Source of the DNA: Nocardiopsis sp. FR4
Lineage (GTDB): Bacteria; Actinomycetota; Actinomycetes; Streptosporangiales; Streptosporangiaceae
DNA: 64,000 bases
NCBI RefSeq assembly: GCF_009830945.1
Contig: NZ_VWVV01000009.1
Coordinates: 124,001 to 188,000, forward strand
Direction: 5' to 3'
In this document: positions 3,001-36,871 of the stretch, piece after piece
How the letters are laid out: each line of letters starts with the position of its first letter
How positions within the stretch are numbered: the stretch's first letter is position 1
The notes under the pieces: generated by a model
Told to the model about the DNA's origin: nothing
Databases searched by the model: none
Seen by the model: the letters and a program-made list of their open reading frames with translations, nothing else
Position numbers and translations under genes: made by a program

Positions 3001-6000
3001 GGCAGATCCACGTGCCCGGCGGGGTCGTCGGGAAGGCGAACGGCGCCGTCGGTGAGGACCGCGATCCTGGCCCCGGCGAGGCGCTCGTCGTCCACCCACT
3101 CCCGGAGCAGGGCCAGAAGGCGGTGGAGTTCGGCGCGGACGCGGTCGGGTGCCTCCCCGTCGCCGCCGCCCGCGGGGACGACGATCATCTCGGGTGCGGG
3201 CGCGCCCGCCTCCAGCACGGCCTCCAGGGCGGCCGTGTCGGTGTGGCGCCGCAGGCCCTCCGGGCCGGTGGCGCCCACGGCCACCCACGTGTCGGTGCGG
3301 TCCGGGTGCCCGCCGACCGCGGGCGGGGCCAGTTCCGTCCAGTCCTGCTGGAAGAGGGCGGGCGGCTCCGCGGCGGCCGGGGCCTCGCGCACGGTGAGGC
3401 TGTCGATCGACAGCACCGGCGCGCCGTCGGGGCCGGTGTGGATCACCGACCACGTGTCGCGGCCGGTCCGGGTGACGCGGGTCCGCAGCCGGGAGGGCGC
3501 CTCGGTGGTGTACAGGCGCACGCCCCGCCAGGCGAAGGGCATCGGGGAGCGCCGCTCACCACCGCCCGCGAGGTGGTGCAGCAGCAGCGCCTGCAGCCCG
3601 GCGTCGGTCAGCGCGGGGTGGGGGCCCGCAACGCCGGGGGCGTCCTGCGGCGGGGTGTCGGACCCGGCCTCGCTCACCACCCCGGCCCCGTCCTCCCACG
3701 CGGCGCGCAGCCCCCGGAAGGCGGGCCCGTAGTGGTAGCCGAGCGCGGAGAAGCGCGGGTAGGCCCCCTCCACCGGCAGCGGCACCGCGTCCGCGCGCGG
3801 GCCCTCGGCGGGGGGCGGGCCCTGCCCGGTCTCGGGGACGAGTTCGCCCTCCGCGTGCAGGGTCCAGGCCTCCTCTCCTTGGGCGAGGGAGAACACGCGC
3901 ACGGCGCGGGCTCCGCCGCCGTCGGGGGCCTCGACCAGGACCTGGATCCGCGGTCCCGGCTCCCCCTCGCCGGAGGGCACCACCACCGGTGTCCGCAGTG
4001 TGAGGTCGGCGATCTCGGGACACCCGCACTCGCGTCCCGCGTGGAGCAGCAGGTCCACCACGGCGGTGCCGGGCAGCAGGGCACGGTCACCGAGGGCGTG
4101 CTCGGTCAGCCACGGGTGCCGCCCGGGGTCGAGCACGCCGGTGAACACCGTGCGCCCGGTGTCGCCGACGGGGACGCGTGCGCCGAGGAGCGCGTGTCCG
4201 GTGCCCGTGACGCCCAGCGCGGAGGGGTCTCCCGAGGCCCGGAGTTCGGGCAGCCAGTACCGGCGGACCTGGAACGGGTAGGTGGGAAGCTCCACCGGCG
4301 CCCCGCCGGTGGAGCCGAGCACGCGGTCCCAGTCCACGCCGACGCCCTGGCAGTGGGCTCGGGCCAGGGCGGCCGTGAACCGGGAGGGTCCGTCCTCGTC
4401 CCGGCGCAGCGTGCTGATCACCGGCCGGTCGGTACCGGCCGCCTCCAGGGTCTCCTCCATCACCGGCGTCAGCACCTGGTGCGGGCCGACCTCGACGAAC
4501 GCGCCGGAGCGGCGGGACAGGCCCGCGATCACCGGGGCCAGGGCCACCGGGTGGCGCAGGTTGCGGTACCAGTAGTGCGCGTCCAGGCGGGCGCCGTCCA
4601 CGGGCACGAGTTCGGGCACGGACTCCGGCGACCACTCGGGGGCGGTGGCGACCGTGGAGTAGAAGGGGACCTCTCCCGAGCGCGGCCGGATCGGCGCCAG
4701 GTCCTCCAGCAGCCGGTCCCTGACCCGGTCGACCGGGAAGGCGTGGGAGCAGTAGTCCAGGCCGAAGTCGCGCACCCGCACGCCGTCGCGCTCGCAGGCG
4801 GCGACGAACTCGGTGACCGCGTCGCGGTCACCGGCTGCGACGGTGGCGTCCGGGCCGTTCACCCCGGCCACGACGATCTGGCCCTTCCAGGGTGCGATGA
4901 GTTCCGTCAGGCGCTCGGCACCGACCCGGACCGCCGCCATGCCGCCGTGTCCGGCCACGTCGTGGAAGACGCGGCTGCGCAGCGCGCTGACCCGGGCGCC
5001 GTCCTCCAGCGACAGCGCGCCCGCCACGCACGCCGCGGCGACCTCGCCCTGGGAGTGCCCCACCACGGCGGCGGGCTCCACTCCGGCGGCGCGCCACAGC
5101 CGCGCCAGCGAGACCATGACCGCCCACAACGCGGGCTGCACCACGTCCACCCGGGCTCGGGGCCCCGCCACCTCCGGTGCCCCGGGTTCGCCACGCAGCA
5201 CGGCCTCCAGGGACCAGTCGGTGAACGGCGCCAGGGCAGCCCCGCACTCGGCCAGCGAGTCCGCGAACACCCGCGAGGAGGCCATCAGGCCCCGGGCCAT
5301 CCCCGGCCACTGGCCCCCCTGCCCGGGGAACACGAACACGGGGTCCACGGAGCGGCCGGTGCGGCCGACCGTGCCGGTGACCACCCCCTCGGCGGGACGG
5401 CCCTCGGCCAGCGCGCGCAGCCCTTCGACGAGTTCGGCGTGCCCGGCGCCCACGACCGCGGCCCGGTGCGCGAAGGCGGTCCGGGCGGTGGCCAGGGCCC
5501 GGGCCACCCCGGCGGGCGGCGCGGCGCCCCCCTCCAGGTGCGCGCGCAGACGCGCGGCCTGTTCGGCCAGGGCCGGGGCGGTGCGCGCGGAGAGCACCCA
5601 CGGCAGCGGCCCCTCCACCAGCGGCCTGGCGGCAACCTCCCCTCCCCGTGCCGGGTCCGCCTCCGCGGCCCCCTCCGGCGCCCGCTCCTCGGGGGCCTCC
5701 TCCACGATCACGTGCGCGTTGGTCCCGCTGACGCCGAAGGAGGACACCCCGGCCCGGCGGACCCGCTCGCCCCGCTCCCAGCGGCGCGGTTCGGACAGCA
5801 CGCGCAGCCGTCCCGACGACCAGTCCACGTGCGGTGTGGGCTCGTCGGCGTGCAGGGTGCGCGGCAGTGTCCCGTGGCGCAGGGCGAGCACCATCTTCAT
5901 GATCCCGGCCACCCCGGCGGCGGCCTGGGTGTGGCCGACGTTGGACTTCAGCGAGCCCAACCCCACCGTCCCGGCACCCCGGTCCGGCCCGAACACGTCC

Positions 6001-7064
6001 ATCAGCGCCTGGGCCTCGATGGGGTCGCCCAGTGCGGTTCCCGTTCCGTGCGCCTCCACGGCGTCGATGTCGTCCGCGGACAGGCCGGCGTCCGCCAGCG
6101 CCGCGCGCACCACCCGTACCTGCGCCGGACCGCTGGGAGCCGTCAGCCCGTTGGAGGCGCCGTCCTGGTTGACCGCGCTCCCCCGGATCACCGCCAGCAC
6201 CCGGCGGCCGTGGCGTCGGGCGTCGGAGAGCCGTTCCAGGACCACCGCGCCCGCGCCCTCGGAGAACCCCGCGCCGTCCGCCTCCGCGCCGAAGGCCTTG
6301 CAGCGCCCGTCGGCGGCCAGGCCGCCCTGCCGGCCGATCTCGGTGAACAGCGACGGTCCGGCCATCACCGTGGCTCCGCCCGCCAGCGCCAGGGAGCACT
6401 CCCCCGAGCGCAGCGCCCGCACGGCCATGTGCACCGCCACCAGGGAGGAGGAGCAGGCCGTGTCCACGGTCAGGGCCGGGCCCTCCAAGCCCAGCGTGTA
6501 CGCCACCCGCCCGGAGGCGACGCTGGTCGCGGTACCGGTCATCAGGTACCCCTCGGCCTCCTCCGGCACGGGCAGCGACCCGGAGGTCGCGCCCCCGGCG
6601 TAGTCGCGGGCGCTGATCCCCGTGAACACCCCGGTCGCGCTGCCCGCGAGGGAGGAGGGGTCGATCCCCGCGCGTTCGAGCGCCTCCCACGTCACGTGGA
6701 GCATGAGGCGCTGCTGCGGGTCCATGGCCGCCGCCTCGCGCGGCGAGATCCCGAAGAAGTCGGCGTCGAAGTCGGCGGCCCCGTCCAGGAAACCGCCCCA
6801 GCGCCGGGAGCCGAGCCGCTCGGCCAGGGCGTCCAGGTCCCATCCCCGGTCGGTGGGCGGGTCACCGACCGCGTCGGCGGCCTCCTCCAGCAGGCGCCAC
6901 AGCGCCTCGGGGGAGTCCGCTCCCCCGGGCAGGCGGCACCCCATGCCCACGATCGCGATCGGTTCCCGGTCGCGGGAGCGCAGGTCGTCCAGTTCGGCGC
7001 GTGTACGGCGCAGGTCGGCGGTCACCCGTTTGAGGTAGTCGAGGAGTCGGGCGTCTTCCGTCAT
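1..7064 (-). CDS. Type I PKS, terminal module KS-AT-DH-ER-KR-ACP-TE (3' end outside window)
   Basis: This is the last extension module plus thioesterase of the assembly line; at least 2354 codons are open and the gene leaves the window on the left. The start is ATG at 7064, 82 bases after PKS2 stops, and the first ~35 residues look like a docking helix. Domains in order are KS (DTACSSS, Cys204), AT (GHSQGE, Ser671), DH (His989 in [11 protein letters not shown] and Asp1154), ER (NADPH motif [10 protein letters not shown] near 1567), KR (VTGGAGTLG near 1750, VDD motif, Tyr1896), ACP (GFDSL, Ser2062) and TE (GRSSG, Ser2242). The AT specificity motif is YCSH at 771-774, neither the methylmalonyl YASH nor the malonyl HAFH form. 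A full DH-ER-KR set predicts complete beta-carbon reduction followed by TE release. Family and domain order are firm; the extender unit is not. Confidence 0.95.
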
Positions 7065-7146: not shown

Positions 7147-10100
7147 TCAGTCGCGCAGGGTGTCGTCGAGGAACGCGAACAGCTCCTCCGGGGTCGCGGA
7201 CTCCAGGTCCCGGTCCACGGCTCCCGCGCTGGAGGGGGACAGCCGGTCGAGCAGCCCGCGCAGCCGCCGGGCGACGGCCTCGCGGTCCAGGTCGGAACCC
7301 TCGTGCTCGGCCAGGGCCGCCTCGATGCCGTCGATCCGCGCCATCACGAGCTGCTCGGTGTCGCCGAAGAGCCGTTCCTCCAGGTGTCGGGCGAGCGCCG
7401 CGCACGTGGGGTGGGAGAAGGCCAGCCCGGAGGGCAGCCGCAGCCCGGTGAGGGCGGAGAGCCGGTTGCGCAGCTCGACGGCGGTCACCGAGTCCATGCC
7501 CAGGTCCTTCAGCCCCCGGTCGGCGTCGAGCGCCTCGCCGGAGGGGTAGCCGAGGATGGCGGCCACCTGTTCGCACACGTGGTCGGTGAGGACCCTTCGG
7601 CGTTCGGCGCGTCCCAGCGAGGACAGCCGCGCCTCCAGACCGCCCGCCGCGGCGCCGCCGGGGACGGTGTGCTCGCCGTCGGCGCGGCCGAGGTCGCCGA
7701 CGAACGGGCTCGGCCGGTTGGCGGTGAACGCGGTGCGGAAACGCGGCCAGTCGACCCTGGCGATCGCGAGCGCGGTCAGGTCCCGGTCGAGCGTGCGCTC
7801 CAGCGCAGCGAGGGCGGCCCCGGGTTCCATCATCGGCAGGCCGTGGCGGTTGAGGAGGGCGGCGACCGCCTCGTCCTCGGCCAGGCCCCCGCCCGCCCAG
7901 GATCCCCACGCCACCGACGTGGCGGGCAGCCCGAGCGCGCGGCGGTGGTGCGCCAGCGCCTCACAGAAAGCGTTGCCCGGTGCGTAGTTGCCCTGTCCGG
8001 ACACACCGAGGACGGCGGAGACCGAGGAGAACAGCACGAAGGCCGACAGGTCCGCGTCCCGGGTGAGCTCGTGCAGGTGTACGGCTCCGTCGGCCTTGGC
8101 GCGCAGGGCGCGGGCCACCTGGCCGGGGGTGAGCGCGTCGACCGCGCCGTCGTCCAGGGAGACCGCCGTGTGCACCACTGCGCGGAGCGGGTACTCCTCC
8201 GGCACCGCGGACAGGACCTCGGCGAGGGCCGCCCGGTCGGCGACGTCGCACGCGGCGAGGGTCACCCGGGCCCCCGCCTCGCGCAGTTCGGCCTCCAGCG
8301 CCCCGGCCCCGGGGGAGGCCGAGCCCCGGCGGCTCACCAGGAGCAGGTGGTCGGCGCCGCGCCGGGCGAGCCAGCGCGCGGTGTGCGCGCCCAGCGCGCC
8401 GGTGCCGCCCGTGACCAGGACGGTCCCGGAGGGCTCCCAGCGGCGTACCGCCCGCGTCCGGCCCAGCGGCGCCCGCGTGAGCCGGCGGACGAGGACCTCG
8501 CCGCCGCGGATCGCGACCTGGTCCTCGCCGGGTGCGCGCCCCCCGCTCAGGACCTCCGCCAGCACCCGGCCCGCGTCCTCCGTCGCGGCGGCGGGCAGGT
8601 CGACGAGGCCGCCCCACCGGTCGGAGTGCTCCTGGGCGGCGACCCGGCCGAACCCCCACACGAGGGAGCCCAGAGGGTCGGTCACCCCGGCCCCGGCCGG
8701 AACCGCGCCCCGGGTCAGGCACCACAGGGGTGCGGTGACCCCGGCGTCACCGAGGGCCTGGACGAGCGCGACGGTGCGCGGGTGGCCGGTGGCTTCGGTG
8801 GGCAGGGCGGGCGCCCCGTCCCCGGAGGCACCGGGCAGGGCCAGGGCCGAGAGGACCCCGACGAGGTCCCCGGTCTCCTGGTAGGCCTTGCCGATGAGCG
8901 CGGCGGTCAGGGCGCGGTCGGCGTCCGCGGGCACGTCCACCGTCCGCACGCGGTAGCCGCGCGCCTCCAGGGACGCGGCGCCGTCCGCGACGGCGGGGTC
9001 CGTCGCGCCGGAGCCGAGCACCAGCCAGGTGCCGGGCGGAACCGGGCGGGACGGTCCCGCCTGAGCGGGCGTCCACTCCTCGGTGTAGGACCACTCGTCC
9101 CACGGGTCGGCGCTCCCGGCGGCCGCGGGGAAGGGCGGTGCGGCGCCGGCCCCGTCGCCTCCGCCCGCCCTCCAGAAGTACTGGTGCTGGAAGGCGTAGG
9201 TGGGCAGGTCGACCACGCCGCGGCCGCCGCCGTACACCCGCTCCCAGTCCGGGGCCACGCCGTGCACGTGGGCCTCGGCCAGTGAGGTCAGGAACCGGCG
9301 CGGTCCGCCCTCGTCCCGGCGCAGGGTGCCCAGGACCACGGTGTCGCGCACCTGGGACTCCTCGCAGGTCTCCTGGAGCGCGGAGTTGAGCACGGGGTGC
9401 GGTCCGACCTCGACGAACGTGTCGTAGCCGTCGCGCAGCAGGGCCCGGGCGGCGTCGGCGAACGCGACCGGGCCGGCGAGGTTGCGGTACCAGTAGGCGG
9501 CGTCCGTCTCCGCGGACTCCAGCCTGTCGCCGGTGAGGGTGGAGTACAAGGGCACGTCGGGCCGGAGCGGCGTGATCCCGGCCAGCGCCGTGGTGACGCG
9601 CGCGCGCAGGCGCTCCACGTGGGGGGTGTGCGAGGCGTAGTCCACCGCGACCAGCCGGGCGTGGACGCCCTCGGCCTCGTACCGCGCGACCAGGGTGCGC
9701 ACCGCCTCGGGTTCGCCCGCCACGACCGTGGCCGACGGGCCGTTGACGGCCGCCACGTGGACGTCGCCGCCCAGTGCGGCGAGGCGCTCGCGGACCCGGC
9801 CGGCGGGCTGGGCCACTGACGCCATCGCCCCGGTGCCCGACAGTTCCAGGAGCGCCCGGCTGCGCAGCGCCACGACCTTCGCGGCGTCCTCCAGGGACAG
9901 CGCCCCGGCCACGCAGGCGGCGGCGATCTCACCCTGGGAGTGGCCGACCACGGCCGCCGGGCGCACCCCGTGGGCGCGCCACAGCTCGGCGAGGGAGACC
10001 ATCACCGCCCACAGCGCGGGCTGGACCACGTCCACCCGCTCCAGGGCGCCCGCCTCCCGCCCCCGCAGCACCGAGGTCAGCGACCAGTCCACATGGGGGG

Positions 10101-11904
10101 CCAGCGCCCGCTCGCACTCAGCCACACGCCCGGCGAAGACGGGCGAGGCCTCCAGGAGTTCGGCCGCCATGCCCTCCCACTGGCCTCCCTGGCCGGGGAA
10201 GACGAACACGGGCTGGCGCTCGCCCCTGGCCACGCCGAGGACCGTCCGGGGGTGGGGCCGCGCCCGGGCCAGGGCGTCCAGGGCCTCGAGGTACCCCTCC
10301 CGGCCGTCGGCGACGACGGCGGCCCGGTGCTCCAGCGCGGAACGGGTGGTGGCCAGCGACCAGCCGACGTCGGCGGGGTCGGCCCCGGGCCGGTCCCGCA
10401 GGTGGTCGCGCAGCCGCGCCGCCTGCCCGCGCAGGGCGGCCTCACCGCGCGCCGAGAGCGTCCAGGGCCGGGGGCCGACCGCGAGCGCGGGCTCCGTGAC
10501 CCGCGCGGGACCCTCCTCGTGCGCGTGGTCGGCCTCGGGCGCCTGCTCGACGATGACGTGGGCGTTGGTGCCGCTCATCCCGAAGGAGGACACTGCGGCC
10601 CGGCGGGGACGGTCGGTCCGCGGCCAGGGGCGCTCCTCGGTGAGCAGTCGGACCGCCCCCACCGACCAGTCCACGTGCGGTGTGGGCTCGTCGGCGTGCA
10701 GGGTGCGCGGCAGCGCTCCGTGTTGGAGGGCCAGCACCAGCTTGATGAGTCCCGCGACCCCGGCCGCGGCCTGGGAGTGGCCGACGTTGGACTTGAGCGA
10801 GCCCAGCCACAGGGGCCGGTCGGCCGGGCGCTCGCGGCCGTAGGCGGTCAGCAGCGCCTGCGCCTCGATCGGGTCGCCCAGGGTGGTGCCGGTGCCGTGC
10901 GCCTCGACCAGGTCGACGTCGCCCGGTTCGAGTCCGGCGTCGGCCAGGGCACCGCGGATCACCCGCACCTGGGAGGGCCCGTTGGGCGCGGTGAGGCCGT
11001 TGGAGGCGCCGTCCTGGTTGACGGCGCCGCCGCGGACCACGGCCAGGACCCGGTGCCCGTTGCGGCGGGCGTCGGAGAGGCGTTCCAGGACGACCATGCC
11101 CACGCCCTCGGCGAAGCCCGCGCCGTCGGCACCCGCGCCGAAGGCCTTGCAGCGCCCGTCCGGAGCCAGTCCCCGCAGGTGGGTGAACTCGGTGAGCGGG
11201 CCCGGGGAGGACATGACCGTCGCCCCGCCCGCCAGCGCGAGCGAGCACTCGCCCGCGCGCAGGGCGCGCACGGCCAGGTGCACGGCCACGAGTGAGGAGG
11301 AGCAGGCGGTGTCCACGGTCATGGCGGGGCCGGTCAGCCCGAGGGTGTAGGAGATCCGGCCGGAGGCGACGCTGAGCGCCGTCCCGGTCATCGCGAGCCC
11401 GTCCTCGGGCGCCTGGGACAGCCGGGGACCGTACTCGGGGGTGAGCGTGCCGACGTAGACGCCGGTGTCGGACCCGGAGAGCGAGGACGGGGCGATCCCG
11501 GAGCGCTCCAGGGACTCCCAGGCCACCTCCAGCAGGAGGCGCTGCTGCGGGTCCATGGCCTCGGCCTCGCGGGGGGAGATCCCGAAGGCCTCGGGGTCGA
11601 ACTCGCCCGCGGCGTCGAGGAAGGACCCCTGGGACATCGCGGAGCGGGGCTCCCCGCCGCCCTCCCCCAGGAGCGCGGCGAGGTCCCAGCCTCGGTCGCC
11701 GGGGAGGGGGCCCACGGCCTCGCGGCCGTGGGTGAGCAGGTCCCACAGGTCCTCGGGGCTGCGGACCCCGCCCGGCAGGCGGCAGCCCATCCCCACGATC
11801 GCGATCGGTTCCCGGAAGGCGGCCCGGCCGACCGCCTCCTTCAGACGTGCGTTCTCCTTCAGCGCGGACCTGAGTGCCGCGACCAGTCGGTCATCGGTAG
11901 TCAT
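7147..11904 (-). CDS. Type I PKS, KS-AT-KR-ACP extension module
   Basis: The second PKS protein is a single module of 1585 residues. I choose ATG 11904, preceded by an AGGAG ribosome site; it overlaps the end of PKS1 by 14 bases, so the two are probably translationally coupled. A GTG at 11922 is an alternative. An N-terminal docking helix ([19 protein letters not shown]) precedes KS (DTACSSS, Cys201), AT (GHSQGE, Ser656; YASH at 756-759, the methylmalonyl signature), KR (VTGGTGALG near 1162, LDD motif of B-type KRs, catalytic Tyr1307) and ACP (GMDSV, Ser1472). There is no DH or ER, so the module should leave a beta-hydroxyl. A normal inactive linker region occupies the space between AT and KR. 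Confidence 0.95.
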
Positions 11905-14900
11905 CTGCCGTCTCCTGTCCACGTGGGGGTGCGTGGGCCTCGCCCTGGAGGGCGAGGTTCAACAGGTCCTCGACCCCCATCGCATCGATGCTGCTCTCCT
12001 GCGCTCCGGCGTCGTCGGCGGGCGCGTCGTCCGCTGTGTGCCTCCGGGGGGTCTCCTCCGGGAGGTCGTCGGTCACGAGGTCGGCCAACAGGAGCGCCAG
12101 CGCTCGCGGGGTCGGGTGGTCGAAGACGGCGGTGGCCGGAACCCGGACGCCGACCGCGGCGCTGAGCCGGTTGCGCAGCTCCACGCCGGTGAGCGAGTCC
12201 AGCCCCAGCTCCGTGAAGGGCCGTTCCGCGTCCACCCGGGAGGGTCCGGCGTCCGGCCCGTGACCCAGGACCACGGCGGTGTGCGCGCGGACCTCGTGGA
12301 GCAGGGCACGCTCCCGCTCGGCCCCGGACATCCCGGCGAACCGGTCGGCGGCGGGGTCCGCGGGCCCTGCGGCCGCCGGGGTCTCCCCGCCGGCCCGGAC
12401 CGTAGGCCCGGCCAGGCCGCGCAGTACGGCGGCGCCGGTGCCGGCCGCGGTGTCCAGGCGGGCGGGGACACTGTGGACCATGTCCCACAGCAGCGCGGTG
12501 TCCAGGTGGCGCAGTGCCTCCTCGGCGGGCATCGGCAGCAGGCCACCGCGGCCGAGCGCGCCGAGGTCGGCCTCGTCCAGGTGCCCGGTCATGCCGCTGG
12601 GCCCGGCCCACAGCCCCCAGGACAACGAGGTGGCGGGCAGCCCCTGCTCGCGGCGGTGGTGGGCCAGGGCGTCGCAGAAGACGTTGGCCGCCGCGTAGTT
12701 GGCCTGCCCCGGGTTGCCCAGGACCCCGACGGCCGAGGAGAAGAGCACGAACGCCCCCAGGTCGGCGTCGGCGGTCAGCTCGTGCAGGTTCCAGGCGATG
12801 TCGGCCTTGGGACGCAGCACCCGGTCGACCTGTTCGGCGGTGAGCGAGGTGAGGAGGGCGTCGTCGAGGACGCCCGCGGCGTGCACGACGGCCCCCAGGG
12901 GGCGGTCCTCGGGGATCCGGCGCAGGAGCCGTTCCAGGTCGCCGCGGCCGGCGGCGTCGCAGGCCGCCACCTCCACCCGGGCGCCCAGGGCCTCCAGTTC
13001 CGCTGTGCGCGCGGCCTGGTCCGCGGTGTCCGGACCGCCCCGGCTGGTGAGCAGCAGGTGGCGCACCCCGTACCCGGTGACCAGGTGGCGCGCCACCCTG
13101 TGGCCGAGGGTCCCGGTGCCGCCCGTGACCAGCACGGTGCGTTCCTGCGGGAACGGCGCCGGGACGGTCAGGACGAGCTTGCCGACGGTCTCACCGCGCT
13201 GGAGGGCCCGCAGGGCGGTTCCCGCGTCGCGCAGATCGTGGACGGTGGTGGGTAGGGACCGAATCGCGCCGCTGGCGAAGAGCTCCATGAGGCGCCTGAG
13301 CATCTGCCCGATCCGCTTCGGGTCCACGTCGGGAAGGTTGAACGCCTGATAGTCGCGGCCGGGGTGGGACTCGGTGAGGTCCTCCTGGGAGCGGATGTCG
13401 GTCTTGCCCATCTCCACGAACCGTCCGCCCGGACCCTCCCCGTCCTGGGGTGAGCGCAGCAGACGTAGCGATGCGTCCACGAACTCGCCGGTCAACGAGT
13501 TGAGGACCACGTCCATGCCCCGCCCGCCGTTGGCGGCGCGAAGACGCTCCTCGAACTCCAGGGTCCGGGAGGAGGCCAGCCGTTCCTCGGGGAGCCCGTA
13601 CTCCGCCAGTCCGGCCCACTTGTGGGGGCTCGCGGTTCCGAACACGCGCGCGCCCATGTGCTGGGCGAGCTGGACGGCGGCCGTTCCCACGCCGCCCGCG
13701 GCCGCGTGCACCAGGACGCTGTCGCCCGGACGCACCGCGGCCAGGTCCACCAACCCGTGGTACGCGCTCAGGAAGGCGACGGGGACCGCCGCCGCCTGCT
13801 CGAAGGTCCACCCCTCGGGGATACGGGCGAGCCGGTCGGCGTGGGCGACGGCGACCGGCCCGAACGCGCCGTCGAACATGCCGGTGACGCGGTCGCCCGG
13901 AGCCAGGTCGTGGACGGCGGAGCCCGTCTCCAGGACGATGCCCGCTCCCTCGATGCCCATGCCGCGTTCGCCCTCGACCAGGCCGAGGGCGACCACCACG
14001 TCGCGGAAGTTCACCCCCGCAGCCCGCACGGCGACCCGCACCTCCCCGGGGTCCAGGGGAGCGGCGGCCCCGGGCGCGGGCAGCAGCTCTAGATTTTCCA
14101 GCGACCCCGGGGCCCGGGTGTCCATCCGCCACAGCGGCCCGGGCGGAGTGAGTTCCCGGGCCCCCGCCTCGGTCAGGCGGGGTACCAGGACCGTGCCCGA
14201 GCGCAGTGCCAGCTGCGGTTCACCCAGCTCGACCGCTCCGGGGAGTACCCGGTGGGAGTCCTCGGAGCCGTCGGAGTCCACGAGCACGAGGCGGTCGGGG
14301 TGCTCCCGCTGCGCAGCGCGCAACAGCCCCCAGACCGGGGCGGCCCCCAGACCAGCGACCCCGTCCTCCCGGCCGGTGGCCACGGCGCGCCAGGTCACCA
14401 CGACCAACCGCGCGTGGGCGTACCGTTCGTCGGTCAGCCAGGAGCGGACGATGCGCAGCGCCGCGTCGAGTCCGGCGCGGACCGCCTCGGGGACCGGCGT
14501 GCCCTCCGTGTAGACCGCGGTGGGGGGCAGCTCGGTGTAGACCGTGGACGGTACGGGCTCGTCCGGGCCGAGGGAGGCCAGGTCGGGCAGGTCGGTGGGC
14601 ACGTCCGGCACGGGGTCGGGGACGGGCGCCGCCTCCCACACCAGTTCGTAGAGCCCGGGCAGTTCGGCGGGGTCGCGTTCGGGCAGGGACTGCCGGTCCA
14701 GGGGGCGCATTCCCAGTTCGTCCACGGTCACGACGGGGGCGCCGTGCTCGTCGGCGGCCAGGATGCGGTAGCGCCCCTCGCCCAGCTCGGTGATCCGCGC
14801 CCGCAGGGTTCGGGGGGCGGCGCCCCCCGTCGGCGGCGTGACGCGCACACCCGACCAGGCGAAGGGCACCAGGAGTCCCTGCCGCTCCGCGCCGTGCGCG

Positions 14901-17900
14901 AGCAGCGCGTGCAGTACGGAGTCCACCAGGGCCGGGTGCGGGCCGTGGAAGGGACCGCCCGTGGCCGCGCCGTCGGGGAGGACCACCTCGGCCAGGAGGT
15001 CCCGGTCACGCCGCCAGACCGAGCGCAGGCCGCGGAACACCGGACCGTAGGTGTAGCCGCGCCCCTCCAGGAGGGCGTAGTCGGCCCCGGTGTCCACGGG
15101 TTCGGCGTCCTCGGGGGGCCAGGTCGGCGCCTGGTGCCGCGGGGCCGACGGATCGTCGGGGGCGAGGGTGCCCGAGGCGTGCCGTGTCCAGGCGGCGTCT
15201 CCGCCGCCCTCGGGGCGGGCGTGGAGGTGCAGTTCGCGAACGCCGTCGCCGTCGGCGGGGCCCACGGTGACCTGGAGCGACACGCCCCGGTCCGCGGTCA
15301 GCACCAGCGGGGCCTCCAGGACTAAATCGCGTATCGAGGGGGAACCGACGCGCGCGGCGGCGTGGGCGGCCGCCTCCACCATGGCCGTCCCGGGAACGAG
15401 GGTCCGCTCCCACACCCGGTGGTCGCTGACCCAGGGGTGGTCGGCCGGACTGATCCGTCCGCTGAACACGGTGCGCCCGTCAGCCAGCTCCAGTCCGCCG
15501 TCGAGCAGCGGAGCCGGAGCGAGGGCGGGGGCGGACATCCAGTGGCGGCGGCGCCGGAAGGGGAGCTCGGGCACGACGACGGGAGCGCCCTCGTCCTCGA
15601 CGCCCTCCAGCACGACGTGCGCGTTCGTGCCGCTGATACCGAAGGAGGAGACCGCCGCCCGCCGGGGTCGCCCGGTCTCCGGCCACGGTTCGGCCTCGCG
15701 GAGCAGTCGCACACCGCTGCCCGCCCAGTCGACCTTGTCCGTGGGCTCGTCGGCGTGCAGTGTCCTGGGCAGCTTCCCGTGCCGCAGCGCCTCCACCATC
15801 TTGATCACCCCGGCCACACCGGCGGCGGCCTGGGCGTGGCCGATGTTGGACTTGAGCGAGCCCAGCCGCAGCTCGTCCTCGCCCTGGCGCGCGTTGCCGT
15901 AGACGGAGATGAGGGCCCGGGCCTCGATGGGGTCGCCCAGGCGGGTGCCGGTGCCGTGCGCCTCCACCGCGTCGACGTCGTGCGAGGTGAGCCGGGCCGA
16001 GGCCAGCGCCTGCCGGATCACCCGTTCCTGGGCCTCTCGGCTGGGAGCGGTCAGGCCGTTGCTCGCACCGTCGGAGTTGACCGCGCTTCCCCTGAGCAGG
16101 GCCAGCACGGGCCGTCCGGCGCGGCGGGCCTGGGAGAGGCGCTCCAGCACCAGCATGCCCGCGCCCTCCGCCCAGGCCGTGCCGTCGGCCCCGGCTCCGA
16201 AGGCCTTGCAGCGCCCGTCCGGGGACAGGCCGCGCTGGGCGGAGAACTCCAGGAACATGCCGGGGGTGGCCATCACCGTGGCTCCGCCCGCCAGCGCCAT
16301 GGAGCACTCGCCCCGCCGGACGGCCTCCGCGGCCTGGTGCAGGGCCACCAGGGAGGAGGAGCACGCGGTGTCGACGGTCATCGCGGGGCCGCGTAGACCG
16401 AACACGTAGGCGATGCGCCCCGAGGCCACGCTCAGGGTGCTGCCGGTCAGGCGGTATCCGCCGTCGGTGCCCGCGCCCGGGTCCGCCAGGCGGGGGCCGT
16501 ACTCGGTGGGCATGGCGCCCACGAAAACCCCCACCTCCTGGTCGCGCAGGGCCGCCGGGTCCAGTCCCGCCCGCCGGATCGCCTCCCACGACGTCTCCAG
16601 GAGGAGCCGCTGCTGGGGGTCCATCGCGTCGGCCTCGCGGGGGCTGATTCCGAAGAAGTCTGCGTCGAACAGGTCGGCGTCGTGGAGGAACCCGCCCGAG
16701 CGCGTGTAGGTGCGGCCGGGCTTGCCGGGCTCGGGGTCGTAGATGCCGTCCAGGTCCCAGCCGCGGTTGTCGGGGAAGGCGCCGATGGCGTCGGCGCCGT
16801 CCTCGACCAGCCGCCACAGGGCCTCGGGCGAGTCGGCGCCGCCCGGCAGACGGCAGGCCATCGCGGTGATGGCCACCGGGTCGTCCTCCGGTGCGGCCGG
16901 GGCGGCGGGCGTGGCCGGCGCGGCCGGGACGGGGGCGCTCCGCGGGGCGTCCTCGCCCAGTTCACCGGCGAGGAACTCGGCCAGCGCGGCGGGCGTGGGC
17001 ACCTCGAACAGGACGGTGTCCTCCAGCCGGACCCCGGTCTCCTCCTCCACCAGGTCGGCGAGTTCGAGCAGCATGATCGAGTCGAAGCCCAGGTCGCGGA
17101 AGGCCCTCTGCTCGTCGGCCTCGGGCAGGGAGTCCTGTTCCAGGATCCGGGCGCTCAGGGCGCGGACCAGTTCCCGGGCGCCGACGCCCCCGGGGGCGTC
17201 GGCGGCGACCCGCGCCGGAGCCGCGGGCACGGGCGCGGAGAGGGGTGCCGGCGCGGTCTCGGGCCAGAAGCGCCTGCGCTGGAAGGCGTAGGTCGGCAGG
17301 TCCACGCGGCGCGCGTTCGTGTGCCGGAACAGGGCGCCCCAGTCCACGTCCACTCCGGCGGTGAACGCCTGGGCCGCCGACGTGAGCAGCTGCGCCTGGT
17401 CGCCGCGGTCGCGGCGGAGCGTCTCCAGTACCGTGCCTCGGACCCCGGCCGCCTCCAGGGTGCGCTCGATCCCGAAGGAGAGCACCGGGTGCGGGCCGAC
17501 CTCGACGAAGGTGGTGTGTCCGGCGGCGACGGCCGCCTCCGTCGCCTCGGCGAAGCGGACCGTGCCGCTCAGGTTCCGGTACCAGTACCGGGCGTCCAGG
17601 ACGGGGCCGTCCTCCGTCAACCGCTCACCGGTCAGCGTGGAGAAGAACGGCACCCGCGGGGAGCGCGGTGCGAGCGGGGCCAGCTGGTCGAGCAGTTCCC
17701 CGCGGATACGTTCCACGTGCGCGGAGTGGGAGGCGTAGTCCACGTCGATCAGGGCGCCGTGGACGCCGTTGTCGAGGCAGTGCTCCACCGCGCGGCGCAC
17801 CGCCTGGGCGCCGCCGGAGACCACGACCGAGTCCGGTCCGTTGACGGCCGCCAGGTACAGGTCCTCGGCCTCGGCGACGTACTCCCGCGCCCGCTCCCTG

Positions 17901-19909
17901 GTCAGGCCGAGCGAGGCCATGCTCCCGGTCCCCGCCAGGGAGGTCAGGGCCCGGCTGCGCAGGGCCACCACGCGCGCGGCGTCCTTCAGGGACAGCGCCC
18001 CGGCCACGCAGGCGGCGGCGATCTCGCCCTGGGAGTGACCGATCACGGCGGCGGGTTCCACACCCAGCTCCGACCACACCCCGGCCAGGGAGACCATCAC
18101 GGCCCACAGGACCGGTTGGACCACGTCGACCCGGGCGCCGGGCCCGGCATAGGGCGGTGCCCCGGGATCGCCCCGCAGCACCTGGACGAGCGACCAGTCC
18201 ACGTGGGGGTCCAGGGCCCGCTCGCACTCCAGCAGTCGTCGGGTGAACACCTGGGCCAGGGGTCCGGCTCCGCCCAGGAGGTCGCGGGCCATCCCCGCCC
18301 ACTGTCCGCCCTGGCCCGGGAAGACCAGGACCGGCCCGCTCCGGTCCCGGGCGTCCTCGGGCACGGCCGCGGGGCGTATCGACTCCAGCTCCCGGGTTCC
18401 CCCGCCGTTCGGGGCGAGTATCACCGCGCGGTGCTCGAACACCGCGCGGGTCGTGGCCAGGGACAGTCCGACGTCCTCGGCGCGCAGGCCCGGGCGTGCG
18501 GAGACGAAGGCGTGCAGGGCCGCGGCCTGCGCGCGCAGCGCGGCCTCCGAACGCGCGGAGATCACCCAGGGCACCGGGTCCAGGGCACCCTCCGCCGCGC
18601 TGGGCTCGGTCCGCTCCGGCCTGGGAGGCGGGGGCGGCCCGAGCACGAGGTGGCAGTTGGTCCCGCCCATCCCGAAGGAGGAGACACCCGCCAGCGGAGC
18701 GTCGGCGGGCCAGGGCTCGCGCTCGGTCTGCGGGGACAGCCCCAGCCGCTCCAGGTCGATGCCGGGGTTGGGCGAGGCGAAGTTGCGGGTCGGCGGCAAC
18801 TGCCCGTGCGACAGGCTCAGCACGACCTTGAGCAGTCCGGCCACCCCAGCGGCGCCCTCCAGGTGGCCGATGTTGGTCTTCACCGAACCCACGCGCAGGG
18901 GCTCGCGCCCGCCCCGGGAGAACACCTCCCCCAGAGCGGCGGCCTCGACCGGGTCCCCCGCGGGCGTACCGGTCCCGTGCAGCTCCACGTAGCCCACGTC
19001 GGCCGGTTCCGCGCCCGCCTGGCGGTAGGCCTCACGCAGGACCTTCACCTGCCCCTCGACCTCGGGCCGGGCCAGGTAGGAGGTCTGTCCGGAGTTGTTC
19101 ACCGCCCCGCCGCGCAGGACGGCGTGGACGCGGTCGCCGTCCGACAGCGCCCGGTCCAGGAGCTTGAGCACCAGTACCGCGCCGCCCTCACCGCGCACGT
19201 AGCCGTTGGCACGGGAGTCCAGCGTGTAGCACCGGCCGTCGGGTGACAGGCCGCCGAACTCGCTGACGCTGTCGGTGCTCTCGGGTACCAGGATCAGGTT
19301 CACGCCGCCCGCGAGCGCGGTGTCGGACTCGCCCCGGCGCAGGCTCTCCGCGGCCAGTTGCACGCTGACCAGCGAGGACGACTGCCCCGCGTCGACGGTC
19401 AGACTCGGTCCGCCCAGACCGAGCGCGTAGGAGACCCGGTTGGCGATCATGCCCCGGTGGGTGCCGGTCAGCGTGTGATGGGTGATGGCCGAGCGGCCGC
19501 CGGCCCGGAGCAGGAGCGCGTAGTCGGAGGCGATGGCGCCGGTGAACACGCCGGTGCGGGTGCCCCGCAGGTCGGAGGGCGCGATCCTGGCGTTCTCGGC
19601 GGCCTCCCAGCTGAGTTCGAGCATGAGGCGCTGCTGGGGGTCCATGGCCAGCGCCTCACGCGGAGAGATCCCGAAGAACGCTGCGTCGAAGTCCTCGGCC
19701 CGCTCCAGGTAACCGCCCCAGCGCCCGTCACGGTCCGGAGTCGGCCCGCCGAGGCGTTCGGGGGGCGGGGTGATCGCCTCGCGGCCCTCGCAGAGCAGGC
19801 GCCAGAAGGCATCGGGGTTCGGCGCCCCGGGAAGACGGCAGGAGACTCCCACCACGGCGATGGGAGCGGCCTCTACCCCGCGGTCACCGTACGCATGGTC
19901 ACTGCTCAA
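11891..19909 (-). CDS. Type I PKS, KSQ-AT-ACP loading module plus AT-less KS-DH-ER-KR-ACP module
   Basis: This 2672-residue protein begins the assembly line. The start is TTG at 19909 with a strong GGAGG seven bases upstream. The first KS has Gln176 in place of the active Cys (VDAGQSSS), the hallmark of decarboxylating KSQ loading domains. It is followed by AT (GHSQGE, Ser626; YASH 725-728, methylmalonyl type) and ACP (GFDSI, Ser944), so a propionyl starter is expected. The second module has an intact KS (DTACSSS, Cys1183) ending near residue 1432, then jumps through a short linker ([11 protein letters not shown], normally found after an AT) to DH (His1497, Asp1663), ER ([10 protein letters not shown] near 2065), KR (VTGGTGTLG near 2261, LDD, Tyr2405) and ACP (GLDSL, Ser2572). 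No AT lies between KS and DH. The reading frame is intact throughout. Confidence 0.95.
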
Positions 19910-20427: not shown

Positions 20428-21693
20428 TCAGTCCCCGTGTCGCGCGCGGACCTCGGCTACGTACTGCATCGCCAGCTCCGGATCGAGGAGCCAGCTGCTG
20501 TAGTCCGGCGGATAGTCCCATCCCTGGATCCACCGGTCACCCACCTCCGGATACGCGGCGGCCGCGTCGACGAGGTCGTAGAAGTACGGTGGCAGGTCTC
20601 CCGCATCCCACAGTGTGGAATTCATCTCAGCCCAGAGTTGATTGTGCAGACCGAATTCCCAGAAACGGTCGAAGGTCCTGACCAGGAATCCCTCATCGAA
20701 CGCACCGTCACCATGCTCGATGATGCTCTCCAGGTACGCCTTCGCACAACGTGTGGAGTTGTTCCAGCTCTGGCCCACGTACGGGTCCATCGTGACGACC
20801 ACGTCGGCCATACCGAGCACGCGCCCGCCCGAGGGAAGTACGCCGACGGGGTTGCGGACCTGGGGGGTGAGCTCCTCCACCAGGGTGCTGTTGCGGCCGT
20901 TGGTGAGGACCGCGTCCTTGACGCGCTCGAAGTAGTCCGGAGCGTACTGGCGGAGCAGGTCCTTCATCCGCCGCAGCTGCTCCTCGGGGCCCGGACGGTC
21001 GGGCCAGGCGTCCATCGGCCCGCCCCGCTTGTCCACGAGGAGCAGGTTGTGGCAGGGCCCCTCCTGCGTGAGGATGGGGAGGAACATGATGTTGCCCGCG
21101 TCGGCCGCGGAGGCCGCCCACCCGATGTTCTCGTCACCCTCCTTTTCGGGCCAGACGTCGTAGACCTGTGCCTGGGCGATGGACCGGGGCCTGGCCCCGC
21201 TGAACCGGCTCTCGTCGTAGTCGAAGAGCTGACCGAGTTCACCGTGCCCGACGGCCACGATGATCAACTCGAACATCCGGGAGAAGTAGTCCAGGTCGGT
21301 CACGGTCACGCCGTGGATGACGACCTTGCCGCCGCGGTCCTCGAAGTACTCCAGCCAGTCGGCCATCTTCACCCGCCGGTCGACCGACACGACGTAGTCG
21401 TTGTTCAGGCCGGTCCTGCCCTTGAACGTCCTGACGGGCTGGTCCCCCGAGGGATACAGATGGACTCGCTGTTCACGGATCTGGGGTGAGAGAGCGCTCC
21501 AGAGGTCGAGGTCGTGCTGGCGCTCGTACTCCAGGGCCGTCGGGAAGGTGAACTGGGCGACGGACGCCTTGCCCGTACGAATCTCCAGCGAGGACTGCCC
21601 CGTGATCACCGTGACGTCGTAACCATGGGTCAGGAGCCCGTGAGCCAGGTGCAGGCCGGCGTGACCCGCGCCGACGATAAGGATCTTGCGCAT
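20428..21693 (-). CDS. Styrene/indole monooxygenase-like FAD flavoprotein (StyA family)
   Basis: The 421-residue protein starts with a Rossmann FAD motif (ILIVGAGHAGLHLA, residues 4-17) and matches the layout of StyA-type epoxidases: a short beta strand, then YDVTVITG, and a C-terminal aromatic-rich helical part. StyA enzymes are two-component monooxygenases that use FADH2 supplied by a separate reductase to epoxidise alkenes. No reductase gene is visible in this window. The ATG at 21693 is preceded by AGGAAAG. The gene lies 60 bases after cvnD on the same strand, so it is probably the fifth gene of the conservon operon. Family assignment is good; the substrate is unknown, and a role in tailoring the nearby polyketide is only possible. 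Confidence 0.8.
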   Translation of the reverse strand: MRKILIVGAGHAGLHLAHGLLTHGYDVTVITGQSSLEIRTGKASVAQFTFPTALEYERQHDLDLWSALSPQIREQRVHLYPSGDQPVRTFKGRTGLNNDYVVSVDRRVKMADWLEYFEDRGGKVVIHGVTVTDLDYFSRMFELIIVAVGHGELGQLFDYDESRFSGARPRSIAQAQVYDVWPEKEGDENIGWAASAADAGNIMFLPILTQEGPCHNLLLVDKRGGPMDAWPDRPGPEEQLRRMKDLLRQYAPDYFERVKDAVLTNGRNSTLVEELTPQVRNPVGVLPSGGRVLGMADVVVTMDPYVGQSWNNSTRCAKAYLESIIEHGDGAFDEGFLVRTFDRFWEFGLHNQLWAEMNSTLWDAGDLPPYFYDLVDAAAAYPEVGDRWIQGWDYPPDYSSWLLDPELAMQYVAEVRARHGD

Positions 21694-21753: not shown

Positions 21754-22359
21754 TCAGGCGACGGGCTCGCTGGCGCGGTTGTGCTCCAACGCGTACCGCA
21801 GCAGCGTCTTGAGCACCTCACCCCCGGACAACCGGCTCCGGGCGTCGAAGTCGATGATGGGGACCTCCGGACTGACCTCCAGCGCCTCGCGGACCTGCTC
21901 GGCCGTGTAGTCGAGCTGGCCCTCGAACTTGTTCAGCGCCACGATGTAGGGGATCCGCTTGGTCGTCTCGAAGTAGTCGACGGCGTCGAAGGAGTCCGCG
22001 AGCCTGCGGCAGTCGACCACGACGACGGCACCCACGGCGCCCCGGACCAGATCGTCCCACATGAACCAGAACCGCGCCTGGCCCGGCGTACCGAACATGT
22101 ACATGACCAGCTCGTCGTCGATGGTGATGCGACCGAAGTCCATCGCGACGGTGGTCGTCGTCTTGTCGGGTGTGATCGAGGTGTCGTCATGACCGATGCT
22201 GGCCTCGGTCATGATCGCCTCGGTCGTGACAGGCGGGATCTCCGACACCGAGCTCACCAAGGTCGTCTTGCCGGCGCCGAAGCCGCCGGCGATGACGATC
22301 TTGCTCGACATCTTCTTGCGATTGGACCGCTTGTCACTGGAAAAGTCGTTCGAGACCAC
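21754..22359 (-). CDS. cvnD: Conservon ATP/GTP-binding protein (CvnD)
   Basis: This 201-residue Ras-like GTPase has the P-loop GGFGAGKTT near residues 25-33, a FGTPGQ segment matching the G3 switch and NKFEG matching the G4 NKxD-type motif. Conservon CvnD proteins are switch components that work with a roadblock protein, a DUF742 protein and a sensor-kinase-like protein in a membrane-associated complex resembling eukaryotic G-protein signalling. The start overlaps the end of cvnC by 26 bases. A second possible start lies at the internal Met of KKMSSKIV, 16 residues in, which is nearer the usual start of the family. Confidence 0.92.
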   Translation of the reverse strand: MVSNDFSSDKRSNRKKMSSKIVIAGGFGAGKTTLVSSVSEIPPVTTEAIMTEASIGHDDTSITPDKTTTTVAMDFGRITIDDELVMYMFGTPGQARFWFMWDDLVRGAVGAVVVVDCRRLADSFDAVDYFETTKRIPYIVALNKFEGQLDYTAEQVREALEVSPEVPIIDFDARSRLSGGEVLKTLLRYALEHNRASEPVA

Positions 22360-22693
22360 GAAGAGCCCTCTCCAGAACCTGGTTTTCCGATGGACTGCTG
22401 CCGGTGATGGTCGGGTGGATGTACACCAGGTCCTGTTCGGCCAGGTCGCTGACCAGGACCTGGGTGACGCCCAGGGGGATGTTCAACTCGGCCGAGACCT
22501 CGGCCAGCGACCGGGTCTCCCGGCAAAGCTTGTAGATACTGATCGACTCCGGCATGAGGGTGCTGGGAGGTTCCTGCCCTGGCTCGGAGGTCGAGACCAG
22601 GGTCTGCACCATCAGCGGATGCCGGGACCGCGTCCGCCCACCGGTGAAGGTGAACGGGCGGACACGGTTACTCCTTCTCCTGCGGAAGCTCAT
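22334..22693 (-). CDS. cvnC: DUF742 conservon protein (CvnC)
   Basis: The 119-residue protein begins with a basic patch and RPFTFTGGRT, continues with LMPESISIYKLC and a winged-helix-like LAEVSAELNIPLGVTQVLVSDL, then VYIHP. These are standard features of DUF742 proteins, the third member of actinomycete conservons. An upstream GGGAGGAGAGG supports the ATG at 22693. It lies between cvnB and cvnD and overlaps cvnD. Its molecular role is not well defined in the family; it probably helps couple the roadblock protein to the GTPase. Confidence 0.92.
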   Translation of the reverse strand: MSFRRRRSNRVRPFTFTGGRTRSRHPLMVQTLVSTSEPGQEPPSTLMPESISIYKLCRETRSLAEVSAELNIPLGVTQVLVSDLAEQDLVYIHPTITGSSPSENQVLERALRGLERLFQ

Positions 22694-22736
22694 AGCCGAG
22701 GCAACCTCTCCTCCCGAACGGTTTCGGTCACCGTCG

Positions 22737-23162
22737 TCAGTTCTGGATGACCTCGCGCAGCTGCGAGCGCAGCTGCGGCGTGAGCACGTGTGCGACGTTC
22801 TCCACGAGCTTGGTCATCTGGAAGCCGATGATCTTGAGCTCGCTGCCGGGGGCGGTCAGGACCGCCATGCAGGAACCGTCGCTGATCGCCATGATGAACA
22901 GGTGCCCGTGGTTGAAGCGTACGAGCAGCTGCTCGCACTCACCCCGCTGGAAGAGGCTCGCCCCGCCCACGGCCAGGCTGTGCAGGCCGCTGGCGATGGC
23001 CGCGAGCTGCTCGGCGTGCTCCTCGGGGAAGTCGCTGGAGTGGGTCAGCACCAGACCGTCGGAGGAGACCACCACGGCGTGCTCGACACCGCGCACGTCC
23101 CGGACGAACCGGTCGATGAGCCAGGAGAAGTTCTCAACACTGTCGTTCACGGATTCAGTCAT
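22737..23162 (-). CDS. cvnB: Roadblock/LC7 domain protein (CvnB)
   Basis: The 141-residue protein is a single roadblock/LC7 domain: FSWLIDRFVRDVRGVEHAVVVSSDGL at the start, then LAAIASGLHSLA and a beta-rich second half with GHLFIMAISDGSCMAVL. Roadblock proteins act as regulators of Ras-like GTPases, here the CvnD product. It sits between the kinase-like gene (106-base gap) and cvnC (43-base gap), which is the canonical conservon order. Confidence 0.93.
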   Translation of the reverse strand: MTESVNDSVENFSWLIDRFVRDVRGVEHAVVVSSDGLVLTHSSDFPEEHAEQLAAIASGLHSLAVGGASLFQRGECEQLLVRFNHGHLFIMAISDGSCMAVLTAPGSELKIIGFQMTKLVENVAHVLTPQLRSQLREVIQN

Positions 23163-26529: not shown

Positions 26530-27774
26530 TCACACATCCAGCCCGATCTGTCCGGCACGTGCGTTGACCAGCGCGGACATGTTTCCGGGGGGCTGTGTGT
26601 TGTCGAAGATCCGCTGGTGCGCCTCACCGATCCGGTCGAACTCCACGATCTCCGTCACACACGGGTCCAGTTGGCCGCCCGCGACGAGGCCGATCACCAT
26701 ACGGCACTGCGACAGGGAGGCGAAGTGGGACCCCTGCAGGCGCTTGAGCCGCATCCACAGGAACCGCAGGTCGATGTCGGCCCGGAAGCCCGAGGTGGCG
26801 CCGCACAGGACGACCATGCCCCCGTTGTCGCACAGGTACAGCGAGGTGGGCAGGGTGTCGGCGCCGGTGTGCTCGAAGACGATCCGGGGCGAGCGCCGCT
26901 CCCCCAGCTCCGCCCAGAACCGCTTGCCGAAGGCGCGCACACCGTGCATCCACTCGGCGTGGGCCCGGGTGTCCCGCTCGTCGGGGACCCGGCCCCAGTG
27001 GTCGAACTCGGTGCGCAGGATCGTGCCGACGGCGCCCAGTCCGCGGCAGACCTCGGCCTTGGCCTCGGTGGAGACCACGGCGACCGGTTTGCCGCCCACC
27101 TGGCGTGCCAGCTGGATGGCCGCGGTGCCCAGCCCCCCGGCCCCGCCCCAGACCAACACGGGGTCGCCCGGACGGACCACGTGGGGTTCCCAGCCGAACA
27201 GCTGCCGGTAGGCGGTGGCCGCGCTCACGATGAAGCCGGCCGCCACGTCCCAGGGCAGCTTCCCGGGTTTGGGATGGCACTGGAAGTCCCGGATCAGGGA
27301 GAACTGACCGAAGGAACCGAAGTTGCTCTCGTAGCCCCACGCGCGCATGCTCCGCGAGGCGACGGGGTCGAGGCCCATCCGGACGTCCTCGGCGCCCTCG
27401 TCCCACTGCCCCGGGGAGAGGATGACGTGGTCGCCGACCTCCACGCCGCGCACGCCCTCGCCCACGGCCCAGACCACGCCGGAGCCGTCGGAACCGCCGA
27501 TGTGGTAGTCCTCCTCGGCACCTGCCTTCTGGCGCGCGGCGATGACGTCGGCGGGGCGCCCCTGTGCGGCCCAGACGTTGTTGTAGTTGATGCCCGCGGC
27601 CATGGTGTACACGAGCACGTGCCCGGGCTGGAGCCGGGGCACCGGGACGATCTCCCGGGCGAAGGCGTCGAGGGGCCGGCCGTAGCGCTCGCGCCGGATG
27701 GTGAAGGCGTGCATGCGCGCGGGGACGTGGCCCCGAGGGGGTATCTCGCCGAGGTCGTACAGGTCCTTGTACAT
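26530..27774 (-). CDS. Crotonyl-CoA carboxylase/reductase-like MDR enzyme
   Basis: The 414-residue protein is a zinc-independent medium-chain reductase related to crotonyl-CoA carboxylase/reductases, which reductively carboxylate enoyl-CoA esters to alkylmalonyl-CoA PKS extenders. Visible features are INYNNVW, YHIGGSDGSG, WGYESNFGSFGQF, the NADPH loop WGGAGGLGTAAIQ and RLQGSHFAS. Against the primary enzymes as I remember them, three of the four CO2-pocket residues are kept (Asn in NYN, the Glu after WGY, the His in GSHF) and Phe is replaced by Tyr. It is ~30 residues shorter than the usual ~445. The ATG at 27774 follows AAGGAAG. Its place near the PKS suggests extender supply, but it could be another enoyl-CoA reductase. 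Confidence 0.78.
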   Translation of the reverse strand: MYKDLYDLGEIPPRGHVPARMHAFTIRRERYGRPLDAFAREIVPVPRLQPGHVLVYTMAAGINYNNVWAAQGRPADVIAARQKAGAEEDYHIGGSDGSGVVWAVGEGVRGVEVGDHVILSPGQWDEGAEDVRMGLDPVASRSMRAWGYESNFGSFGQFSLIRDFQCHPKPGKLPWDVAAGFIVSAATAYRQLFGWEPHVVRPGDPVLVWGGAGGLGTAAIQLARQVGGKPVAVVSTEAKAEVCRGLGAVGTILRTEFDHWGRVPDERDTRAHAEWMHGVRAFGKRFWAELGERRSPRIVFEHTGADTLPTSLYLCDNGGMVVLCGATSGFRADIDLRFLWMRLKRLQGSHFASLSQCRMVIGLVAGGQLDPCVTEIVEFDRIGEAHQRIFDNTQPPGNMSALVNARAGQIGLDV

Positions 27775-28197
27775 GGGTTCTTCCTTCCGGCGACCGGGGT
27801 GGGGATGCCGCGCGGAACCAGTGGCCGTGCAGGCGCACACGTGCGCCCGGAGGGGCGGGTGCCCGCGCGAAGAAGTGGAGTGAGGGCTGTCCGAATTCGG
27901 AATCGGGGGGAGGCCGGGGTCCGGCACCGGTCCGGCCCGGGTCCCCCGCCTTCCCGGCACGGGGAGCCGGGGCGCGGGAAGCGGGAGGGCGGAGTTCGCC
28001 CCCCGTCCCTTCCGGAGTGCGTTCGGGTCGTGTTACGTCGAAGCCGGAATTCTCTTCCACACCGCCCTGAACTGGTAGTACATTGCCTTTCGCCCTTTTC
28101 AGGCCGGACACGAGATTTCAGTGGGACACGATGAAGACGAACCAGGAAACGACCGCCCGCGCCTTTGTCCAGGGACGAAAGTCCCGGAAAACGACAC
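27775..28197. other. Intergenic region upstream of the carboxylase/reductase gene
   Basis: No gene is supported here. The part from about 28050 to 28280 is richer in A and T than its surroundings and should contain the promoter for the leftward carboxylase/reductase gene and the degraded 3' end of the binding-protein pseudogene. Several open frames crossing it on both strands are shadows of neighbours. Confidence 0.4.
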
Positions 28198-36540: not shown

Positions 36541-36550
36541 TCGTCTCGTG

Positions 36551-36623
<73 letters not shown>

Positions 36624-36787: not shown

Positions 36788-36798
36788 CCGCTGGGCTG

Positions 36799-36871
<73 letters not shown>

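Follow-up and report, generated by a model that had tools for sequence, protein, structure and literature searches.

Introduction

The logic by which modular polyketide synthases (PKSs) of the cis-acyltransferase (cis-AT) type are read assumes one AT per module. Extension modules without an integrated AT are characteristic of the trans-AT PKSs of the bacillaene and leinamycin type, in which all modules are AT-less, the ATs are discrete proteins, and the KS-AT linker region is kept next to the KS; the kirromycin line is mixed, with cis-AT and trans-AT modules and dedicated discrete ATs. Here, we analyse a PKS locus in Nocardiopsis sp. FR4, encoded within a 64,000-nucleotide stretch of DNA (the window), in which the first extension module has no AT. 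We propose, with a probability of about 65%, that cis-AT lines initiated by a KSQ can stably use one AT for both the loading module and the first extension module, that evolution can dispense with either copy (that of module 1 in Nocardiopsis, that of the loading module in a related genus), and that invictolide-type lactones are the products of this shared-AT PKS, which is fixed genus-wide.

Module 1 of PKS1 lacks both the AT and the KS-AT linker

PKS1 is a single open frame of 2672 amino acids on the minus strand (11891-19909; the other PKS, monooxygenase, conservon, and carboxylase/reductase genes below lie on this strand too), with the domain order KSQ-AT0-ACP0 followed by KS1-DH-ER-KR-ACP1. 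Pfam recognizes two KS domains, one AT (residues 528-855, the loading AT), two ACPs, and one each of DH, ER, and KR; a PF00698 search of the genome finds three ATs within the window and none in module 1, with modules 2 and 3 having one each. The loading module comprises a KSQ (18641-19864) in which Gln176 replaces the active cysteine (VDAGQSSS), AT0 (17345-18328; GHSQGE and YASH motifs), which we propose serves both ACPs, and ACP0 (16958-17170; GFDS, Ser944). The VDxGQ signature is present in 21/21 orthologues, and the Gln also in the three deletion genomes described below. Module 1 consists of KS1 (15605-16879; DTACSSS, Cys1183), DH (14699-15508), ER (13154-14056), KR (12527-13147; LDD motif, with the Tyr and Asn kept), and ACP1 (12074-12307; GLDS, Ser2572), the carrier that needs to be charged.

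The junction between KS1 and DH is unusually short. KS1 ends in a 15-residue segment at nt 15605, an 11-residue remnant of the post-AT linker is encoded by nt 15571-15539, and the only sequence between KS1 and DH is a junction of about 22 residues (15539-15604) and a short Ala/Pro stretch. A normal cis-AT module, as seen in PKS2 and PKS3, has at this place a KS-AT linker of about 100 residues and an AT of about 300; in module 1 both are missing and the terminal portion of the post-AT linker is fused directly to KS1. The original prediction that module 1 lacks an AT yet retains its post-AT linker is thus confirmed by the Pfam domains and the PF00698 search, with the loss of the KS-AT linker to be added, and its numbering of Cys1183 and Ser2572 is exact. 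KS1 is of the cis-AT type: its best PDB matches are DEBS and Lsd14 modules at about 600 bits, and trans-AT KSs score at most 328 bits (PksL). On this difference (600 bits to DEBS versus 328 to PksL) we reject a trans-AT origin of KS1.

PKS2 (7147-11922) carries module 2, KS-AT(YASH)-KR-ACP, and PKS3 (1-7064, extending about 190 bases beyond the window start) carries module 3, KS-AT(YCSH)-DH-ER-KR-ACP-TE. On the other side lie a StyA-like flavin monooxygenase (20428-21693), which adjoins PKS1 in 20/20 genomes compared, and conservon genes (21754-23162) that serve as a syntenic marker and encode a CvnD-like ATP/GTP-binding protein (21754-22359) and a roadblock CvnB-like protein (22737-23162). 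The conservon proteins are 89-99% identical genus-wide, versus 60-80% for the adjoining PKS. Two tRNA-Lys (ctt) genes are found near each other further along the window (36550-36623 and 36798-36871). On another contig of the genome designated G000 (C3, locus L011, 5202-11090), a 1962-residue protein, read by eye as KS-AT-ACP-KR-DH with a C-terminal phosphopantetheinyl transferase, resembles enediyne/PUFA synthases.

The junction is conserved throughout Nocardiopsis

To determine the distribution of the junction, the KS1-DH region was used as a query against 150 related genomes, and a same-genus set of 40 Nocardiopsis genomes (G000 and 39 others) was assembled; the profile search was family-wide, and the distribution outside the family represents a sample. 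Among the 150 genomes, the uninterrupted KS1-DH junction occurs throughout the genus, and matches outside the genus are to the KS only. The junction is in frame and without insertion in 36 of the 40 same-genus genomes, including three in which contig ends cut the gene yet span the junction; in G013 it is present but frameshifted, and in G003, G021, and G032 it is absent together with ACP0-KS1. Intact orthologues share 62-77% identity over the KS1-DH region. In the 21 genomes that we dissected, the distance from KS1 to the end of the post-AT motif is always 22 residues, with the consensus EGVADEGAPVxxPxxPFxRxRHW. A plasmid search did not find the full junction.

Repetitive PKS genes can be collapsed in draft assemblies, and a collapsed repeat or an assembly error at 15600 was what the original prediction had named as able to overturn it. 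However, the same in-frame junction recurs in 36/40 independent assemblies, complete ones among them, and is found frameshifted in one more; the junction is therefore neither chance nor an assembly collapse, and we regard collapse or local decay as next to impossible.

A natural deletion series indicates selection on module 1

The catalytic residues of PKS1 are under evident constraint. All 21 orthologues keep the KSQ Gln, the AT0 Ser, His, and Tyr, the ACP0 Ser, the KS1 Cys-His-His triad, the DH His and Asp, the KR Ser, Tyr, Asn, and Lys, and the ACP1 Ser. The exception is the ER, whose cofactor motif is degraded in 4/21 (G004, G005, G006, and G018) with KR and DH intact; a double bond may remain in the products of these four. 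The earlier statement that module 1 is not a product of simple decay holds.

The three genomes that lack the junction provide a natural control. In G003, G021, and G032 (loci L176, L178, and L180), the locus retains its conservon, monooxygenase, and crotonyl-CoA carboxylase/reductase (CCR) genes, and PKS1 has the order KSQ-AT0-DH-ER-KR-ACP1. All three have lost the KR catalytic Tyr and Asn, along with further sites, and in G003 the AT0 serine is gone as well; PKS1 in these genomes is now apparently a bare loading module. A monooxygenase tree places them inside the AT-less group, consistent with one or two events. We also considered the reverse path, in which ACP0-KS1 would have been inserted into a lone ancestral module, and rejected it: the three genomes keep the KSQ, their reductive domains are decayed, and they are nested within the AT-less group. 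A different remnant occurs at the same locus in G062 (L182/L183), where the domains KSQ-AT-KR-ACP-TE are divided between two overlapping frames, apparently after fusion and breakage.

The reductive domains thus decay where KS1 is gone, and DH and KR stay intact where KS1 is present without an AT, which argues that module 1 serves extension; the KR loss in the three deletion genomes implies that the intact module is in use. AT-less modules can be non-elongating, and if module 1 were skipped or acted as a mere relay it would need no AT. This is very improbable, given that the active residues of KS, DH, KR, and ACP are intact in 21/21 orthologues and that the KR decays in 3/3 genomes in which KS1 is truly absent.

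The loading AT is the probable source of the module 1 extender

If module 1 elongates, an AT from elsewhere must charge ACP1, and the original prediction listed the loading AT, the AT of PKS2, and a free AT as candidates. The complete genome G005 encodes four PF00698 domains in all: AT0, AT2, AT3, and FabD. In G031 and G010, two other complete genomes, PKS ATs are more numerous, but FabD is again the sole discrete AT; in G000 the discrete ATs are FabD and an MdcH-like protein, each with a malonyl-type motif. The flanks of the locus, compared in 21 genomes, encode no discrete AT. A dedicated discrete AT such as trans-AT systems possess was thus not found in these genomes, and a free AT is an unlikely loader. 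The loading AT, by contrast, emerges as a strong candidate. Its motif is YASH in 21/21 orthologues, whereas that of AT2 varies (YASH, HAFH or RAFH, FAAH; YASH in class A clusters, to which the window belongs), as does that of AT3 (YASH, YCSH, VAGH, LISH, and others). YASH is used as a methylmalonyl motif (PMC6490886, PMC7489565), and specificity is not fixed by YASH alone (PMC12843615). We consider it quite likely that AT0 charges ACP0 and ACP1 alike with methylmalonyl. Because it is constant and on the same chain as ACP1, AT0 is the simplest supplier. Two observations speak against such sharing: class A clusters have a YASH motif in AT2 as well, and FabD is present everywhere; both ATs could in principle supply ACP1.

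An AT of PKS2 or PKS3 acting in trans would be a plausible supplier in that these modules lie on neighbouring polypeptides and class A clusters, that of the window among them, have a YASH AT2. However, several class B clusters have a malonyl-type AT2 (HAFH/RAFH), and many clusters an unusual AT3, so the extender at ACP1 would differ by lineage while PKS1 remains unchanged. Add to this that AT0 is constant and on the same polypeptide as ACP1, and that the shared AT of genus g9 (see below) is likewise on one polypeptide with both ACPs, and charging by PKS2 or PKS3 becomes improbable. We judge slightly less probable still that FabD of fatty acid synthesis gives ACP1 a malonyl unit, as happens in some trans-AT systems. 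FabD is present in every genome checked and is often the sole discrete AT, but module 1 lacks the linker region that trans-AT modules use for AT docking, KS1 is of the cis-AT type (600 bits to DEBS versus 328 to PksL), and the invictolide-type product reported from the genus is methyl-branched at the position set by module 1. A literature search that covered few subscription papers found no precedent for a loading AT supplying an AT-less module.

The assembly line is predicted to make an invictolide-type lactone

Clusters of class A, including that of the window, have KS-AT-KR-ACP as module 2 and KS-AT-DH-ER-KR-ACP-TE as module 3; in class B, module 2 lacks the KR and module 3 lacks the ER. 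For class A with methylmalonyl throughout, the architecture predicts that a propionyl starter and three units give 3,5-dimethyl-6-(1-methylbutyl)oxan-2-one, which we take to be the carbon skeleton of invictolide. The side-chain methyl of this skeleton would come from the AT-less module 1; methylmalonyl from AT0 therefore fits and malonyl from FabD does not. We derived the skeleton before finding the report, as cited in PMC7699178 (Sato 2011), that a marine Nocardiopsis tangguensis yielded 3,6,7-tri-epi-invictolide together with an analogue. That compound has the same constitution as predicted for class A clusters in which all ATs are YASH, a link that we infer from architecture and genus. To our knowledge, no gene cluster is known for tri-epi-invictolide; this compound of the genus, related to an ant queen pheromone, or a molecule like it may be the product of the cluster. 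The extender of module 1, which had been considered open, is thus fairly well defined by the YASH motif of AT0 in 21/21 orthologues and the invictolide diastereomer reported from Nocardiopsis. The window cluster, with its YCSH AT3 and nearby CCR, may plausibly make a homologue bearing a larger alkyl group at C3. From class B, a 3,5,6-trialkyl-2-pyrone or an open 5-oxo-2-enoic acid would be expected.

The CCR gene (26530-27960) more likely serves module 3. The suggestion that this nearby carboxylase/reductase feeds module 1 was right in that it is a true CCR (TIGR01751, 529.7 bits), but its presence tracks non-YASH AT3 rather than anything in module 1: a CCR occurs in 14/17 genomes with a non-YASH AT3 versus 1/7 with a YASH AT3 (24 genomes; Fisher p = 0.004), an association that loses its significance when phylogeny is taken into account, the independent pairs being too few. 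Nothing links the CCR to module 1, and a role in feeding that module is not favoured.

Discussion

We propose the following origin and mechanism. The ancestor of PKS1 would have had a canonical KSQ-AT-ACP-KS-AT-DH-ER-KR-ACP module pair, each AT accepting methylmalonyl-CoA. A KSQ module takes the same CoA ester as the extension module, so that one AT is redundant and either copy can be lost; in the Nocardiopsis ancestor, a deletion would have removed the KS-AT linker and the AT of module 1, leaving the terminal portion of the post-AT linker. In the resulting enzyme, AT0 would place methylmalonyl on ACP0, where the KSQ decarboxylates it to propionyl, and also on ACP1, from which KS1 would condense the extender with the propionyl. 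Module 1 would fully reduce the product, and modules 2 and 3 with the TE would convert it to a branched delta-lactone of the invictolide type.

PKS1 represents a genus-wide, selected exception to the one-AT-per-module rule. A mirror image in another genus, with the natural deletion series as a control, makes inter-module AT sharing directly testable. These enzymes are natural templates for compact, AT-sparing engineered lines, extender predictions for AT-less modules of this kind are corrected, and the ant-pheromone-like lactone gains a candidate gene cluster.

The apparent parent form is found in Streptomyces griseus NCTC13033 (L129), which has KSQ-AT-ACP-KS-AT-DH-ER-KR-ACP with two YASH ATs; its KS falls near KS1 in a KS tree, although with weak support. 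It shares with PKS1 the domain order, KSQ start, cis-AT type of KS, fully reducing module, and YASH ATs, and differs in that the Nocardiopsis module 1 lacks the KS-AT linker and the AT. The mirror image is found in genus g9, where the same conservon-monooxygenase locus encodes KSQ-linker-ACP without an AT, followed by KS-AT(YGSH or YASH)-KR-ACP (G047, G150, G151, G152, and G154; loci L186, L197, L198, L200, and L201). As we propose for Nocardiopsis, one methylmalonyl-type AT would serve the loading and first extension ACPs; unlike Nocardiopsis, g9 has lost the loading AT, kept that of module 1, and partly retained the KS-AT linker. Two genomes of another family, G290 (L211 and L212, 9225-16451) and G411 (L213 and L214, 8513-15451), have a KSQ, a missing or decayed loading AT, an ACP, and a KS fused to DH-KR-ACP; there is no intact AT on that polypeptide, and the preceding gene has a malonyl-type AT. 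Because these AT-less modules have no intact loading AT either, other supply routes can exist.

PKS1 resembles trans-AT PKSs of the bacillaene and leinamycin type in having an extension module without an integrated AT, but the other modules of its cluster carry ATs, the linker of module 1 is gone, and the genomes compared have no dedicated discrete AT. With mixed lines such as kirromycin it shares the coexistence of AT-less and AT-bearing modules; in PKS1, however, the supplier appears to be the neighbouring integrated AT rather than a dedicated discrete enzyme.
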